From Olsenella porci (GTDB lineage Bacteria; Actinomycetota; Coriobacteriia; Coriobacteriales; Atopobiaceae): a stretch of DNA of 64,000 nucleotides. Shown here piece after piece: positions 25,648 to 61,638 of the stretch (position 1 is its first letter; each line of letters starts with the position of its first letter). The stretch is taken from NCBI RefSeq assembly GCF_009695875.1, contig NZ_VUNC01000001.1:372001-436000 (forward strand), given 5' to 3'. Under the pieces are notes generated by a model. That model saw only the letters and a program-made list of their open reading frames with translations. It was not told the origin of the DNA and did not search any database. The position numbers and the translations under genes are program-made.

Positions 25648-25722
25648 TGGCTGGGGCAGAGGGATTCGAACCCCCATTGACGGCACCAAAAACCGCTGTC
25701 CTAGCCGTTGGACGATGCCCCA
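25648..25722 (-). tRNA. tRNA-Gln (anticodon TTG)
   Basis: The minus strand folds as a cloverleaf: acceptor TGGGGCA/TGCCCCA, D stem GTCC/GGAC, anticodon loop TTTTGGT with anticodon TTG, T arm GGGGG-TTCGAAT-CCCTC, and an encoded CCA end. A TACAAT -10-like box lies 40 nt upstream (25762-25767, minus). The rest of the 522-nt gap between glmU and the PTS gene shows no other gene. Confidence 0.95.
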
Positions 25723-34004: not shown

Positions 34005-35513
34005 ATGCCAAGGACAAGTGGAGTGCTCATGCCCGTCTCGGCGCTGCCGGGGGCGTATGGGATTGGTTCCTTCGGGGCCAAGGCGTACCAGTTCGTGGAC
34101 TTCCTCACGCGTTGTCACCAGGGCTACTGGCAGATTCTCCCGCTCACCACAACGAGCTACGGGGACTCGCCCTACCAGTCCTTCTCCGCATTTGCGGGCA
34201 ACCCCAACTTCATCGACTTCGACGAGCTCCTCCAAGAGGGCTATCTCGAGCCTTCGGACCTCGACGGGGTGCCGTTTGGCTGCGACCCCGGCCGAATCGA
34301 CTACGGCCAGATCTTCGTGAGCCGCAGGAAGGTTCTCGAGTGCGCGGTGGACCGCTTCTTCTCCAAGCCCCCCAAGGACCTGGGAGAGTTCCTCGACGAG
34401 AATGACTGGTGGCTCGCGCCATACTGCGAGTTCATGACCGTAAAGGAAGAGTTTGGGCTCAGGGCCTACTACGAGTGGCCTGAGGAGTGCCGCAGGCGCG
34501 GGGAGGCCACTGCGGCGATATGCGCGCGCAGCCCCGAGCGCATGCGCTACCACCAGATGACCCAGTACCTCTTCTACCATCAGTGGCATGCCCTCAAGGA
34601 GTATGCAAACAAGCACGGCGTGCGGGTGATAGGTGACATCCCCATCTACGTCTCGCGCGACTCGGTGGAGATGTGGGAGAGCCCGCAGCTCTTCAAGACC
34701 GACGAGGCCGGCAACCCCCTGAGCGTCGCGGGAACCCCGCCCGACCAGTTCTCGTCCACGGGCCAGTACTGGGGCAACCCCATCTACGACTGGGAGTCCA
34801 TGGCAAGGAACCACTATGCGTGGTGGGTCGCGCGCATGCGCGCCAGCCTGGCCCTCTACGACGTGGTTCGCATCGACCACTTCCGTGGGTTCGAGGCGTA
34901 CTGGGAGGTGCCGTTCGGCTCGCCGTCGTCCAAGTATGGCGACTGGACCAAGGGTCCGGGCATCGCGTTCTTCCGCGAGCTTGAGGACCAGCTCGGCAGG
35001 CTGCCAATCATCGCGGAGGACCTGGGCTTCCTCACGCCGGAGGTCATCCAGATGCGGGAGGACACCGGCTTTCCCGGGATGAAGATCCTGCAGTTTGCCT
35101 TCGATGGCGACAGCGACTCGTATTACCTGCCCCACCACTACGAGCCCAATACCATTGCCTACGTGGGCACGCACGACAACGAGACCGCTCGCGGGTGGTA
35201 CGAGGACACCGCCACCCCGCGGCAGCGCGAGCAGGCGGACACCTACCTGCACCGCGCGGAGGGGGAGCCCGTCTCCGCCGCCCTCAACCGGGCAATCGCC
35301 GCGTCGGTGAGCGACACCTGCATCTATACCATGCAGGACCTCCTCGACCTCGGCAACGAGGCCCGCATGAACACGCCCGCGACGGTGGGCGGCAACTGGA
35401 GCTGGAGGATGCGGGAGGGCGCAATCACGCGCTCGCTCGAGGAGCGCCTGTCATCCCTGACCCAGACATACTTCCGCATGCCAGGAGCGAGTGGCCCGGA
35501 CCTTCCCCAGTAG
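34005..35513 (+). CDS. malQ: 4-alpha-glucanotransferase (GH77 amylomaltase)
   Basis: A 502-residue GH77 enzyme of the compact, plant/Thermus type without the N-terminal extension of E. coli MalQ. The three catalytic carboxylates appear in VVRIDHFRGFEAYW (nucleophile, near residue 290), IIAEDLGFLT (acid/base, near 340) and YVGTHDNETARGWY (near 392). It starts GVLMPVSALPGAYGIGSFG and shows SPYQSFSAFAGNP. It transfers glucan chains between maltodextrins in the cytosol, making substrates long enough for the phosphorylase encoded next. AAGGAG precedes the ATG. Confidence 0.95.
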   Translation: MPRTSGVLMPVSALPGAYGIGSFGAKAYQFVDFLTRCHQGYWQILPLTTTSYGDSPYQSFSAFAGNPNFIDFDELLQEGYLEPSDLDGVPFGCDPGRIDYGQIFVSRRKVLECAVDRFFSKPPKDLGEFLDENDWWLAPYCEFMTVKEEFGLRAYYEWPEECRRRGEATAAICARSPERMRYHQMTQYLFYHQWHALKEYANKHGVRVIGDIPIYVSRDSVEMWESPQLFKTDEAGNPLSVAGTPPDQFSSTGQYWGNPIYDWESMARNHYAWWVARMRASLALYDVVRIDHFRGFEAYWEVPFGSPSSKYGDWTKGPGIAFFRELEDQLGRLPIIAEDLGFLTPEVIQMREDTGFPGMKILQFAFDGDSDSYYLPHHYEPNTIAYVGTHDNETARGWYEDTATPRQREQADTYLHRAEGEPVSAALNRAIAASVSDTCIYTMQDLLDLGNEARMNTPATVGGNWSWRMREGAITRSLEERLSSLTQTYFRMPGASGPDLPQ

Positions 35514-35568
35514 GGGAGTGCTGAAGCCCGATTTGACCATGTCCGTCATCACCCTATCAGGAGGACGA

Positions 35569-37836
35569 ATGATCAACCTTGAAGAACGATCGCAGGTCGC
35601 CTTTGGCAAGCCGCTCGCACAGATTGGTGACGCCCAGGTGTGCCGGCTGCTGCAGGATCTCGTGCGCGAGCACTGCCAGACACTGCCCATAATGGAGGGC
35701 AAGAGGCGTCTGTACTACGTGAGCGCCGAGTTCCTCATCGGACGCCTGCTGATCAACGACCTCATCAACCTGGGGCTGTACGACGAGGTGAGGGAGCAGC
35801 TTGCCCAGGCTGGCCACGACCTCGCCGCCGTGGACGACCAGGAGGTGGAGCCCTCCCTGGGTAATGGCGGCTTGGGGCGTCTCGCCGCGTGCTTCATGGA
35901 CTCCGTGGCGACCCTTGGGCTGCCTGGTGACGGAGTGGGTCTCAACTACCACTACGGCCTGTTCCACCAGCGGTTCGTCGACAACCAGCAGACCGCGCTC
36001 CCCGATGAGTGGCTGGGCGAGCAGGACTGCCTGGAGGACGAGGGCAAGAGCTTCGAGGTGCAGTTTGGCGACTTCTCCGTCGTCTCCCACCTGTACTCCA
36101 TCGACGTCCCCGGCTACCACAACGGCAAGCGCAACCGCCTGCGCCTCTTCGACCTCGAGGGCGTGGACGACTCGCTGGTGCCCGACGACTCCATCGACTT
36201 TGACAAGACCAAGGTGGCCAAGAACCTCACCCTGTTCCTGTATCCCGACGACTCCGACGAGGACGGTCGCCTGCTGCGCGTGTACCAGCAGTACTTCATG
36301 GTGAGCAACGCCGCCCAGCTCATCGTGAGCGAGGCGGTTGAGCGCGGCAGCAACCTGCACGACCTTCCCGACTACGCGGTGGTGCAGATCAACGACACGC
36401 ATCCGACCATGATCATCCCCGAGCTCATCCGCATCCTCACGCAGGAGCATGGGATCGACTTCGAGGAGGCCGTGGGCATCGTCCGCCACATGGTCGCCTA
36501 CACCAACCACACCATCCTGGCGGAGGCGCTGGAGAAATGGCCCCTGGAGTACCTCGCCAAGGTCGCTCCCAAGATTGCCAAGATCATCGAGCTTCTCGAC
36601 CAGATGCAGCGCGAGGAGCACGACGACCCCGCCGTGGCAATCATCAAGGACGGCACCGTGCACATGGCGCACCTGGCCATTCACTACGGCTTCAGCGTCA
36701 ATGGCGTGGCAGCCTTGCACACCAAGATCCTGGAGGAGACCGAGCTCCATCCCTTCTACGAGCTGTATCCCGAGAAGTTCAGCAACAAGACCAACGGCAT
36801 CACCTTCCGCCGCTGGCTCATGGGCTGCAACCCCGACCTCACCTCCCTCGTGGACAAGACCATCGGCACCGACTGGCACCGCACGGCGGACCTCACGCCG
36901 CTCATGGCGCACGTGGATGACGATGAGGTGCTCGATGGCCTGGTAGAGGCCAAGGGCAAGGCAAAGGCGCGCATGCGCGAGTTCCTGCTTACCCACCAGG
37001 GCGTCACGGTACCCGAGGACGCCATCATCGACGTCCAGGTCAAACGCATTCACGAGTACAAGCGCCAGCAGATGCTCGCCCTGTACCTCATCTGGAAGTA
37101 CCTGGACATCAAGAATGGCAACAAGCCGGCACGCCCCATCACGGTGGTGTTTGGCGGCAAGGCAGCACCTGCGTACACCATCGCGCAGGACATCATCCAC
37201 CTGATCCTGACCCTCTCGTCCTGGATTGCCAACGATCCCGACGTGGCGCCCTACCTTCAGGTGATCATGATCGAGAACTACAACGTCAGCGCCGCCGAGC
37301 GCGTGATTCCCGCAGCGGACATCTCGGAGCAGATCTCGCTCGCCAGCAAAGAGGCTAGCGGCACCTCCAACATGAAGTTCATGCTCAACGGCGCGGTCAC
37401 CCTCTGCACACTCGACGGGGCAAACGTCGAGATCGCGGACCTGGTGGGCGAGGACAACATCTACACCTTTGGTACGTCCAGCAGGGAGGTCGAGCGCCTG
37501 TACGCCGAGGGCGCATACGACCCGCAGGCCTACTACCACAAGCCCGGTATCAAGCTGCTGGTTGACTTCATCACCAACCCTGCGTTCATGGCGACGGGCA
37601 ACGAGGAGCGGCTGAGGCGCCTGCACGACGACATGGCGCACAAGGACTGGTTCATGGCCCTCCTCGACCTGGAGGAGTACATTCAGGTCAAGGAGCGCGT
37701 GTACGCCGACTACGAGGACCGTGGGGCGTGGGTGCGCAAGGCGCTGGTGAACGTGGCCCAGGCGGGCACCTTCTCGTCCGACCGAACCATCGCGCAGTAC
37801 AACGAGGACATCTGGCACCTCGTTCCCCAAAAGTAG
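35569..37836 (+). CDS. glycogen/maltodextrin phosphorylase (GT35)
   Basis: A 755-residue alpha-glucan phosphorylase releasing glucose 1-phosphate from maltodextrins or glycogen. RLYYVSAEFLIGRLL, PSLGNGGLGRLAACFMDS, NGITFRRWLMGCNP and the pyridoxal-phosphate motif EASGTSNMKFMLNGAVTLCT (Lys near residue 603) are all intact. AGGAGGACGA precedes ATG 35569. With malQ and the ABC operon it completes maltodextrin uptake and breakdown. Sequence does not distinguish a maltodextrin from a glycogen preference; the operon favours maltodextrin. Confidence 0.95.
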   Translation: MINLEERSQVAFGKPLAQIGDAQVCRLLQDLVREHCQTLPIMEGKRRLYYVSAEFLIGRLLINDLINLGLYDEVREQLAQAGHDLAAVDDQEVEPSLGNGGLGRLAACFMDSVATLGLPGDGVGLNYHYGLFHQRFVDNQQTALPDEWLGEQDCLEDEGKSFEVQFGDFSVVSHLYSIDVPGYHNGKRNRLRLFDLEGVDDSLVPDDSIDFDKTKVAKNLTLFLYPDDSDEDGRLLRVYQQYFMVSNAAQLIVSEAVERGSNLHDLPDYAVVQINDTHPTMIIPELIRILTQEHGIDFEEAVGIVRHMVAYTNHTILAEALEKWPLEYLAKVAPKIAKIIELLDQMQREEHDDPAVAIIKDGTVHMAHLAIHYGFSVNGVAALHTKILEETELHPFYELYPEKFSNKTNGITFRRWLMGCNPDLTSLVDKTIGTDWHRTADLTPLMAHVDDDEVLDGLVEAKGKAKARMREFLLTHQGVTVPEDAIIDVQVKRIHEYKRQQMLALYLIWKYLDIKNGNKPARPITVVFGGKAAPAYTIAQDIIHLILTLSSWIANDPDVAPYLQVIMIENYNVSAAERVIPAADISEQISLASKEASGTSNMKFMLNGAVTLCTLDGANVEIADLVGEDNIYTFGTSSREVERLYAEGAYDPQAYYHKPGIKLLVDFITNPAFMATGNEERLRRLHDDMAHKDWFMALLDLEEYIQVKERVYADYEDRGAWVRKALVNVAQAGTFSSDRTIAQYNEDIWHLVPQK

Positions 37837-37869
37837 GGGAGAGGGGCGGGAGGCATCGCTCGTCTCCCC
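37836..37869 (+). terminator. terminator-like hairpin at the end of the maltodextrin operon
   Basis: GGGGAGA pairs with TCTCCCC across 20 nt beginning at the last base of the stop codon; only a short TT follows. Confidence 0.5.
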
Positions 37870-37901
37870 TTGCCTCGGGTGATTTCGCGCCGAGGCCGCT
37901 T

Positions 37902-38012
37902 CGTAAGGGTTGGCGCGTTTAGCGAGGGGCTAAGCGCGCCGATTCTTATGCGATTCCGTGTCTCGTAAGATTTCGTGCGCTTAGGGTGGTGCCAAGCGCG
38001 TCAATCCTTATG
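37902..38012. repeat. tandem pair of long hairpins with CGTAAG/CTTATG ends
   Basis: Hairpin 1 (37902-37950) pairs along 22 positions from CGTAAG to CTTATG around a GAGGG loop, using several G.T pairs. Hairpin 2 (37964-38012) begins and ends with the same boxes, contains GTGCGCTT/AAGCGCG and has a few mismatches. The two are offset by 62 bp. They lie in the 415-nt gap between a plus-strand operon and a minus-strand gene. G.T pairs in one strand become A.C mismatches in the other, so the structure favours a plus-strand RNA. 38013-38172 shows nothing further. Confidence 0.7.
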
Positions 38013-38172
38013 GAACTCGGATCCGATGAGCCGACCGCGCCTCGGTGCTTCCTCCGCGGCAGCTCCCATCCTCCTCGGGGCCGTTTACGGCGAGCGCTGC
38101 CGGGGCCGCTCCGCCCGTCCGAGGGACGCGTCGTCGCGTCCATACCGTCCCCCCCCCCTCATGAAGGTGCGA

Positions 38173-38210
38173 AAGGGACCCCATCTGCCCTGAGGCGGGT
38201 GGGGTCCCTT
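38173..38210 (-). terminator. terminator of the galE-prenyl synthase-PG-binding cluster
   Basis: AAGGGACCCCA pairs with TGGGGTCCCTT. Read on the minus strand the stem ends in CCCTTTCG about 40 nt beyond the last stop codon. Confidence 0.75.
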
Positions 38211-38251
38211 GTGCGTTCTGGCTCGGTTGGGGGAGAGATGCGGCGCGCCAG

Positions 38252-39166
38252 CTAGTCGTTGAACGCCGTGCAGATGGCGTCGAGCAGCATGACCGCGAAG
38301 GTCTGCGCGTCCGCCGTGGTGAAGGTGCCGTTGTAGTGGTTGCCCAGCGGCAGCTCCAGTCTGATGACGGGAGGCTTGGCCTTGCGCGCGCCCTCGCAGG
38401 TGGTGCGGATGCGCTGGGGAAGCGTGTCCAGGTCGTCGCACACCAGGTTCATGACCTTGCTGTCGTCCGCCAGGGGCGTGGACGCCAGGACGAGCACGCA
38501 GGTGGTGCCCTCCGAGGCGTCGGAGGCGTGCTCGATCAGCTCGAGCCCGCTCTTCTCCGTGGTGGCGCATGCGAGGTTCCAGATGCGGCCGGCGACGTTG
38601 CGGCTGATGGGGTCCTCCGCCGTGATGGAGAGCGGGGTCACCTCCAGCACGCCCGCCGCGCGTGCGAAGCCCATGCCGCCCGTGGGGTGCGGGCCCGCAG
38701 CGGGCTTGCCCGCCCACACGTGGCGAAGGCGCTCGATCGCGTCGAAGGTGTCGTCAAACGCCATGCCGTCCGCGAGCATGCCCTGGCTCTCTTGGAACTG
38801 GGCAACGGCGGCCTCGGTGTAGGCGCCAAAGTAGCCGTCCGCCTCGCCACACGAGAAGCCCAGGATGTTGAGGCATTCCTGCAGCTGCCTCACATCGGCG
38901 CCATGGTAGTTGGGAAGGCGCAGGTACAGGGTCCTGTCGCCCATGTGGTAGGTCTCGTCCACAAGCTCGGACCAGGTCGCCGAGTCGACCTCGGTTCCCA
39001 GCGGCAGGCGGTGGTCCAGGCGGAACTTTGCCACGGCGCTCGCCGTCGTTGAGCCAAAGTCCTGCGAGGCGATCTCCTTCTCGTCGATCTCGTAGTCCAG
39101 CGAGGCAAGGCGCCCCTGGATGTCCTCGACTGCGGCGCCCTGCGCGCCAACGGTGATTGGTTCCAT
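38252..39166 (-). CDS. double peptidoglycan-binding-domain protein
   Basis: A 304-residue protein. Two PG_binding_1 repeats occupy residues about 1-72 (VGAQGAAVEDIQGRLASLDY ... FGSTTASAVAKFR) and 78-150 (GADVRQLQECLNILGFSCGE ... FGAYTEAAVAQFQ). The last 150 residues resemble the fold of N-acetylmuramoyl-L-alanine amidases in length and beta-alpha order (VLVLASTPLADD, IRLELPLGNHYNGTFTTADA), but no clear zinc-ligand set (His-Glu-His) is visible, so a catalytically silent relative such as CwlM/CwlB-like regulators is possible. There is no signal peptide, so it is cytosolic as read. ATG 39166 follows AGGAG; the TTG just upstream is less likely. Confidence 0.72.
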   Translation of the reverse strand: MEPITVGAQGAAVEDIQGRLASLDYEIDEKEIASQDFGSTTASAVAKFRLDHRLPLGTEVDSATWSELVDETYHMGDRTLYLRLPNYHGADVRQLQECLNILGFSCGEADGYFGAYTEAAVAQFQESQGMLADGMAFDDTFDAIERLRHVWAGKPAAGPHPTGGMGFARAAGVLEVTPLSITAEDPISRNVAGRIWNLACATTEKSGLELIEHASDASEGTTCVLVLASTPLADDSKVMNLVCDDLDTLPQRIRTTCEGARKAKPPVIRLELPLGNHYNGTFTTADAQTFAVMLLDAICTAFND

Positions 39167-39190
39167 AAGCAACTCCTACTCAAGCGGCGC

Positions 39191-40249
39191 CTAGTCCAGG
39201 CGCTCCACAAAAAAGTCTGCCATAGAGAGGAGCGTCGCGCGCGCCTCGTCCAAGACGTCCACGTTCGACAGATGCGACTTTGCGGTGCGAACGAGCGTGC
39301 GTGCGTACTCGCGGGCGTGCGCCACCCCGCCGGCGCGCTCCATCAGCTCGACGGCACGTGCGAGCTTGGCGGGGTCGGTCGTCTCGCCCGAGAGGAGGGA
39401 GAGGAGCTCGTCGTGCTCCGACCCCTTTAGGTAGGCCAGGGACCAGACTGCCACGAGGGTGCGCTTGCCTTCCGTGATGTCGGTGCGGAAGTCCTTGCCC
39501 TGCGCCTTGGCGTCACCCACCAGGTTGAGGAGGTCGTCCTGAATCTGGAAGGCCAGGCCGCAGTCCATGCCAAACGAGCGTAGGCCCTCCACCTGGGCGT
39601 CGGTGCCGCCTCCGCAGATGGCCCCCATGACCAGGGGAACGGCGCCGGAGTAGTACGCCGTCTTGTGGGACGCCATGTACAGGTAGTCGTCCACACCCAC
39701 GTCCCAGCGGTTGTCGCGGGCCCATCCCAGGTCCAGCGCCTGCCCCTCAACGGTGCGCAGCTCCATGTTCGCGAGCTCGCGGGCAAGGCGGAGCCTGACC
39801 CGGTCGGACAGGTCGGGGGCGTCCAGGAGGAGGCGGAACGTGTTCACGATCCCCAGGTCGCCCACGTTGATGGCAACGCCCACGCCCTCCGTGCGATAGG
39901 TGCATGGCTTGCCGCGGCGCAGCTCGCCCTCGTCGGCGATGTCGTCGTGGATCAGCGCGGCGCTCTGGAACGTCTCGATTGCCGCGGCGGCGGGCAGCGC
40001 GTCACGCGCGTTGCCGCCCACGGCCTCGGCCCCCAGCAAGCAGAGCGCCGGGCGGGTGCGCTTGCCCCCGCCCCGCGTGAAGTCCCATAGCGGACCGTAC
40101 AGGTAGCGCTCGAGGTTGTCTGCACCCGAGGCAGATGTGGCGTGCGGGGCAATCTCGCGCAGGTAACCCTCGACCAGGGGCCTGACACGCGTCAGGTATG
40201 CCACGAAGGCGCCCTGCGACTGGGATGCCACGCTACTCTCCGTAGCCAT
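39191..40249 (-). CDS. polyprenyl synthetase (trans-isoprenyl diphosphate synthase)
   Basis: A 352-residue all-helical prenyltransferase. Substrate sites: GGGKRTRPALCLL, first Asp-rich motif IHDDIADEGELRRGKP (D102, D103, D106), and the second motif FQIQDDLLNLVGD, where the last Asp of DDxxD is Asn (DDLLN), a variation seen in some long-chain synthases. Product chain length cannot be fixed from sequence; geranylgeranyl or longer products are plausible. Its start overlaps galE by 17 nt and it is followed after 24 nt by the peptidoglycan-binding gene, suggesting one envelope-related operon. Confidence 0.9.
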   Translation of the reverse strand: MATESSVASQSQGAFVAYLTRVRPLVEGYLREIAPHATSASGADNLERYLYGPLWDFTRGGGKRTRPALCLLGAEAVGGNARDALPAAAAIETFQSAALIHDDIADEGELRRGKPCTYRTEGVGVAINVGDLGIVNTFRLLLDAPDLSDRVRLRLARELANMELRTVEGQALDLGWARDNRWDVGVDDYLYMASHKTAYYSGAVPLVMGAICGGGTDAQVEGLRSFGMDCGLAFQIQDDLLNLVGDAKAQGKDFRTDITEGKRTLVAVWSLAYLKGSEHDELLSLLSGETTDPAKLARAVELMERAGGVAHAREYARTLVRTAKSHLSNVDVLDEARATLLSMADFFVERLD

Positions 40250-61423: not shown

Positions 61424-61434
61424 GTGTGGCCCCC

Positions 61435-61573
61435 GTTTCTTTCATCCGGACTGTAACCGTTGGTCCTGGACTCTCACCAGGTCAACCGCTCTTTTCTGCG
61501 CGGTGCGCGGACTCGTCGCATACCCGTTTGGGGCGACCTACCGCCAGTGGGGAATCTCACCCCGCCCTGAAAC
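61435..61573 (-). promoter_or_regulatory. FMN riboswitch (RFN element)
   Basis: On the minus strand all conserved RFN blocks appear in order: CAGGGCGGGGTGAGATTCCC, CACTGGCGGTAGG, GACGAGTCCGCG, a variable hairpin, ACCTGGTGAGAGTCCAGGAC, ACGGTTACAGTCCGGATGAA and AGAAA. The closing stem GTTTC/GAAAC is intact. It ends 12 nt before the ribU start, so FMN probably blocks translation initiation. A TATAGT -10-like box is at 61584-61589. Confidence 0.93.
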
Positions 61574-61638
61574 TGCCAGTGGGACTATAGCACTTCACGC
61601 TCGCCCGGGGGAGAGAAACGGGGGAATGCCACCAGACG

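Follow-up and report, generated by a model that had tools for sequence, protein, structure and literature searches.

The stretch of DNA analysed here (the window, 64 kb of the Olsenella porci genome) contains two neighbouring inverted repeats between two convergent genes, a glycogen (carbohydrate) phosphorylase gene (glgP) with its stop at 37836 and a gene for a peptidoglycan (PG)-binding-domain protein whose frame ends at 38252. The repeats, at 37902-37950 and 37964-38012, are 49 nt each, lie 62 bp apart from start to start and have the ends CGTAAG/CTTATG, and the first of them begins 66 nt past the glgP stop codon. The features of the junction are listed below, where the half-site scores come from a matrix built with these four sites included.

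35491-37836, forward strand: glgP (Pfam PF00343, E 2.3e-251), ending toward the pair
37886-38024, no strand assigned: stretch aligning (78%, 139 bp) with the C12 pair, G000:C12:8513-8651
37896-37923, forward strand: half-site 1, a 28-bp motif of flank, CGTAAG box and CGCG-K-TTA box (score 33.2)
37902-37950, forward strand: palindromic unit 1 (hairpin 1), 22/22 stem positions paired, 5-nt loop
37929-37956, reverse strand: half-site 2 (score 31.4)
37951-37963, no strand assigned: spacer of 13 nt
37958-37985, forward strand: half-site 3 (score 34.5)
37964-38012, forward strand: palindromic unit 2 (hairpin 2), imperfect
37991-38018, reverse strand: half-site 4 (score 32.8)
38252-39172, reverse strand: gene for the PG-binding-domain protein (Pfam PF01471), ending toward the pair

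The stem of hairpin 1 is made of 17 Watson-Crick and 5 G.T pairs, and no other 49-mer in the window has 22 paired positions. Its RNA minimum free energy (MFE) is -35.6 kcal/mol (z -9.0), as good a value being reached by none of 200 shuffles. Hairpin 2 has 14 Watson-Crick pairs, 3 G.T, 2 A.C and 3 other positions in its stem and an MFE of -16.3 kcal/mol (z -2.3) that is equalled by 4 of 200 shuffles. Because its paired count is reached at 33 window positions, itself and hairpin 1 among them, hairpin 2 is unremarkable taken alone, and it is shown to be real by its match to the family model R1 described below, not by its own fold. Units 1 and 2 score 67.6 and 61.5 bits with R1, both being training sequences of that model. 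The pattern CGTAAG-N30-45-CTTATG has no third occurrence in the window (shuffles average 0.01), and the best half-site score elsewhere in the window is 4.6. With 6 flanking bases per side, the pair is predicted to fold as RNA into one long hairpin (-64.4 kcal/mol) rather than two separate ones (-57.1 kcal/mol), whereas with DNA parameters the long hairpin (-27.0) and the two local ones (-26.3) are nearly equal. The coordinates, end boxes and 62-bp spacing given in an earlier note on this DNA were right, as was its description of hairpin 1 as paired along 22 positions with several G.T pairs. Its placement of the pair at the 3' side of an operon agrees with the position just 3' of glgP, and its impression that no known family matches agrees with Rfam 15, which at gathering score has no match at the repeats in the window or across the 11 loci described below. 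Hairpin 2 does have the same end boxes, but it is weaker than the note described.

Neither a sigma-70-like promoter nor a terminator-like site of the T-run type turned up in a scan of 37700-38400. A separate inverted repeat at 38173-38210, with 17-nt arms AAGGGACCCC...GGGGTCCCTT that are 88% complementary, lies ~40 bp away from where the convergent gene ends and is perhaps a candidate terminator for the junction, although it is absent from the T-run scan results. Elsewhere in the window, Rfam recognises an FMN riboswitch at 61430-61578 (reverse strand, 98.8 bits) and a tRNA gene at 25651-25722 (reverse strand), and its single match across the 11 loci is also a tRNA. Another glycogen phosphorylase, a distant one with 43% identity, is encoded in the genome at G000:C1:256357-258705, where G000 denotes the O. 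porci genome and the C numbers its contigs.

A DNA search of the O. porci genome first revealed extra copies of the pair, and the pattern CGTAAG-N20-50-CTTAYG found more, each 48-49 nt long save one 44-nt match on C8, which is unmatched by R1 and was left out of the unit count. R1, a covariance model trained on ten units, recognises 17 units at 11 extragenic places with best-strand E <= 0.002; 10 of the 17 counted units were in the training set, and these E-values are rough. Two further R1 matches (E 0.29-0.33) were not counted as units. As expected of palindromes, 16 of the 17 units match R1 on both strands (E <= 1). They are laid out as six pairs and five singles, and are accompanied by one half unit and one decayed unit:

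C1:409902/409964: pair, the glgP-side pair of the window (R1)
C1:602645/602706: pair (R1)
C9:49720/49779: pair, spacer 10 nt, first unit among the least conserved (R1)
C9:200565/200627: pair (R1)
C9:249242/249304: pair (R1)
C12:8525/8587: pair (R1)
C10:143355: single unit (R1)
C10:216112: single unit (R1)
C11:120471: single unit (R1)
C15:13113: single unit (R1)
C15:19949: single unit (R1)
C1:518420: half unit (half-site pattern search)
near C10:215959: decayed unit

The spacer is 13 nt in every pair except that at C9:49720. Units are 48-50 bp long, and the palindrome runs partly on into the flanks (57 bp or more with flanks). One long hairpin is favoured on both strands for four of the six pairs with RNA parameters and for two of the six with DNA parameters. 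Searching the genome for the half-site pattern with up to two mismatches returned, beyond the known units, just the half unit and two chance-like matches, a yield equal to that of the backward control.

By mechanical gene calls, five of the 11 full places lie between convergent genes, five between codirectional genes and one between divergent genes. The units are mostly at gene 3' ends, and their neighbours are of unrelated function, including ilvC-, uvrC-, type III glutamine synthetase- and anaerobic ribonucleotide reductase-type proteins, a CLC channel and a patatin; a tRNA intervenes between C9:49779 and the protein gene to its right. A Pfam scan of 24 neighbouring proteins, a set that excludes the nearest frame right of C10:143355, found ordinary domains and zero mobile-element proteins. 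The Y1_Tnp domain (PF01797) has no match in the genome, which is 98.95% complete, while 5 of 14 control genomes were positive.

The flanks of the copies were compared for signs of copying. In an ungapped test no pair of flanks went beyond shuffles (best pair 18/34, shuffled best median 18). The likeness of the window pair to that on C12 is not significant past the first 6 flanking bases. In a gapped test only the left flanks of the two C15 units proved homologous, scoring 24.5 where the best among 60 shuffled sets reached 18.5. These units, C15:13113 and C15:19949, are singles 6.8 kb apart that have ~70 nt of left flank in common beyond the unit (L035), and, judged from the sequence, they appear to be the one clear case of copying together with the flank. 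Likenesses seen by eye between the C1 and C12 flanks, between C9:249242 and the half unit and among the C10 flanks were rejected as not significant in the gapped test. Since the flanks are mostly unlike, the copies would be either old or independent.

Outside O. porci we found no member of the family. Among 140 genomes of the taxonomic family, in each of which R1 scored at most 43 candidates, it matched O. porci alone and the other 139 were empty. Across 395 genomes of the order, the 140 included, R1 matched O. porci and gave one weak match (G286, E 0.0067), in a scan with up to 15 candidates per genome; the G286 match was rejected as a family member, its half-site scores being negative. Both of these wide scans used stricter filters and could miss weak members elsewhere. 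A search independent of the model, using the half-site pattern with one mismatch, gave 19 matches in O. porci as against 0-2 per genome elsewhere, the backward control giving 0-3. At ten half-site places and the R1 match in other genomes of the order, the best second half-site scored 4.0, as compared to a minimum of 17.6 within the family. A DNA search over 40 relatives matched O. porci alone, and collections of plasmids, phages and viral contigs gave no match. Repeat-pattern matches in five stretches of unrelated bacteria were taken as chance, because ~7 are expected for a nearly identical pattern (base composition ignored). Thus, among the genomes searched, where a single genome represents the genus, the palindrome family is restricted to this O. 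porci genome. In the open-licence literature, repeat terms paired with presumed group names led to no paper, and a looser search listed none of relevance.

The junction itself was compared in ten relatives with the closer type of phosphorylase (54-78% identity), over ~1.5 kb per side. One of the ten, G005, which belongs to another genus of the same family, was found with the same convergent gene pair (phosphorylase 78%, PG-binding gene 63%), and it also keeps the next frame behind the PG-binding gene (window 39191-40249; 62%). Its intergenic region is shorter than 100 nt, does not contain the O. porci hairpins and holds a different palindrome, near-perfect and 64 bp long (L089:1427-1490), which is a dimer of a 29-bp unit with the consensus GGGCACCAGGGGGTACTCCCCTGGTGCCC, unrelated to the O. 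porci unit. This palindrome is dispersed in G005, with at least 75 matches that were merged by hand to at least 41 places, all G005 copy numbers being lower bounds with 40 of 66 candidates scored. In 39 stretches (L126-L164) we found 62 units with up to 8 mismatches to the consensus; 59 have up to 6, and 56 of these were aligned, three off-register ones being omitted. Neighbouring units form 20 pairs, 14 inverted (+-), three ++ and three --. The outer arms of the 14 inverted dimers co-vary (identity 0.893 vs. 0.786 permuted, p 5e-5), whereas neither the inner arms do so (p 0.71) nor the two arms within one unit (p 0.96), and a per-unit pairing test gave no excess (185/500 shuffles). With wider flanks, 21 G005 places comprise 8 convergent, 7 codirectional and no divergent ones, and 6 inside mechanically called frames. 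Units of the G005 type were not found in the O. porci window or at the 11 O. porci loci. The G005 family, with its inverted doublets and co-varying outer arms, is REPIN-like, and the glgP/PG-binding junction is occupied by a different palindrome family in each of the two genera. Both families are dispersed, occur singly and in pairs and lie at gene ends, but the G005 unit is shorter, its copies are more numerous, and its dimers are inverted with co-varying outer arms.

ERIC-like repeats are extragenic elements of more than 100 bp that are palindromic as a whole; the O. porci element is like them by description only and differs in being a tandem of two palindromes. A closer comparison is with REP sequences and REPINs. 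Like these, the O. porci family consists of dispersed extragenic palindromes often in doublets, six in this case. REP/REPIN units are 20-40 bp and the O. porci unit is 48-50 bp; REPINs have a resident RAYT (Y1_Tnp), which the O. porci genome does not show. According to PMC3116915, REPINs are inverted doublets of REPs with compensatory changes, and they have in common with the O. porci family the extragenic palindromes, the near-constant doublet spacer, the possible single long hairpin and the occurrence of singles, but REPs are short and number in the hundreds, as compared to 49 bp and 17 units here (PMC3116915). No significant compensatory change was found in the six O. porci pairs, whose outer arms have an identity of 0.696 vs. 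0.667 permuted (p 0.086, n=6) and whose inner arms are no more alike than permuted (p 0.71); the inverted order within these pairs is not assignable because the units are nearly symmetric.

GTAG- and CGTC-tagged REPs, as PMC3733652 describes them, are found for the most part where the neighbouring genes are convergent or codirectional, some of their families are species-specific, and CGTC-tagged families exist without a dedicated transposase. In these respects, namely placement, the lack of a detected transposase and lineage limitation, the O. porci family resembles them, whereas their stems are 6-13 bp with an unpaired tag and the O. porci stem has at least 22 positions (PMC3733652). An unpaired GTAG/CGTC tag at the stem end is not seen in the O. 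porci family: none of the 17 units shows a GTAG tag, and CGTC stands one base ahead of CGTAAG in just four of the 17 and in the half unit, with other sequences elsewhere. Of 34 halves, 11 have GTCT as their flank, and the flank partly extends the palindrome. Since size, tag and copy number differ, we did not file the O. porci family as a member of the CGTC-tagged REPs.

Taken together, the pair is probably one dimer in a family of extragenic palindromes that is specific to this lineage, is dispersed and works in the manner of REP/BIME/REPIN sequences. The unit is a near-symmetric ~49-bp palindrome in which a bipartite half-site occurs twice, and two units with their 13-nt spacer, when single-stranded, can fold into one long hairpin. 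The dispersal, the pair architecture, the extragenic placement, the confinement to this genome among those searched and the independent variation of the halves are observed, as is the unrelated REPIN-like family at the G005 junction; for function and mobility we infer the following course. The copies may have spread long ago as non-autonomous elements by means of a hairpin-recognising transposase which would by now be lost, or was never resident, as no Y1/RAYT gene was seen. They would survive mainly where genes end, where they presumably do least harm, and any present effect on glgP or the convergent gene, such as 3' mRNA protection or a transcription block, would be incidental. The C15 flanks and the existence of half and decayed copies speak for copying. 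Against this REP-like reading are the absence of Y1_Tnp from the genome, the long unit, the low copy number, the mostly non-homologous flanks, the outer arms of the pairs, whose similarity is not significant, and the free positions, which carry no significant shared ancestry.

The main rival, possible although on balance unlikely, is that the units are maintained binding sites of a candidate DNA-binding protein, each unit being a dyad of bipartite half-sites whose boxes are under selection. This would fit the 62-bp distance of paired units, about six helical turns, and the 13-nt spacer in 5/6 pairs. It would also fit the uneven conservation along the 34 half-sites, in which the CGTAAG and CGCG-K-TTA boxes are well conserved and other positions free (chi2 192, 27 df, p 8e-27), with a profile alike in both halves (rho 0.87). 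Furthermore, halves are no more alike within a unit (identity 0.666) than between units (0.658, p 0.34), so that the two halves of a unit vary independently. Shared ancestry is not significant at the free positions (identity 0.430 vs. 0.424 shuffled), and most flanks likewise are not homologous; when all positions are counted, pairwise identity has a larger variance than in shuffles (p 0.007). Against maintained sites speak the failure to find a member in any of the 139 other family genomes, the decayed and half copies, the positions mostly at gene 3' ends rather than promoters, and the two C15 copies duplicated along with their flank. The mixture of fixed and free positions, moreover, is also seen in the REPIN-like G005 units. 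Because the flank likenesses proved not significant, our confidence in the REP-like reading was lowered to the level given above, that in binding sites was raised to its present one, and that in an origin from another transposase was raised slightly, to the low level given below. A related idea, which we consider rather doubtful, is that each genus keeps its own palindrome, read by its own candidate protein, to mark or insulate convergent gene ends, so that unrelated palindromes would serve the same purpose at the glgP/PG-binding junction.

In comparison with the REP-like reading, the idea from which the analysis began, an RNA element of the glgP (maltodextrin) operon or a separate small RNA whose hairpins in the forward transcript protect or end mRNA, now looks very unlikely. 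The high stability of hairpin 1 in the forward strand, 66 nt past the glgP stop, speaks for it. Nevertheless, the unit recurs at 10 more places beside unrelated genes, the junction scan returned neither a sigma-70-like promoter nor a T-run site, and the hairpins are missing from G005 although its convergent gene pair is the same; some role of the hairpin once transcribed may still exist. Three tests of stem pairing gave no excess over shuffled partners: 84.1% vs. 83.7% for 10 units (217 of 500 shuffles reach the observed value), 80.1% vs. 79.8% for 17 units with flanks (204/500), and 79.4% vs. 78.9% for 17 re-oriented units (171/500). An RNA element kept by compensatory base-pair change was rejected on these grounds. 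The lack of a pairing excess, along with the independence of the halves, speaks against a selected RNA stem; pairing being no better than shuffled, the stem is palindromic since each half fits the same motif, not through co-evolution of the two strands of an RNA stem. Nor is there a strand rule. The argument of the earlier note, that G.T pairs point to the forward-strand RNA, fails across the family, where the forward strands of 17 units have 36 G.T, 21 A.C and 57 other mismatches, the last inflated by one 50-nt unit out of register. The strand rich in G.T at C1:602645/602706 runs against both adjoining genes, and at C12:8525/8587 A.C exceeds G.T (4 vs. 2) on the strand of the genes. The note had named homologues without conserved pairing as an observation that would refute it, and the G005 junction supplies one.

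That the units are abutting terminal inverted repeats, left from the ends of an insertion sequence or MITE that has been lost and that used a non-Y1/RAYT transposase, is least probable of all, for although palindromic units at fixed spacing, a solitary half unit and the missing Y1 transposase would suit it, the half-site search of the genome with up to two mismatches shows no end pair marking an intact element, and no target duplication was noticed.

In summary, the pair behind glgP is probably a dimer of REP-like dispersed palindromes. The finding adds to the known repeats a palindrome family of long units and few copies, for which no Y1 transposase was detected, and, in another genus, a REPIN-like family. 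It also carries a caution, in that a strong hairpin just downstream of an operon is not necessarily an RNA of that operon. The junction at which two genera have unrelated palindromes may serve as a small natural experiment on whether such elements are landings that are tolerated or are kept for use.
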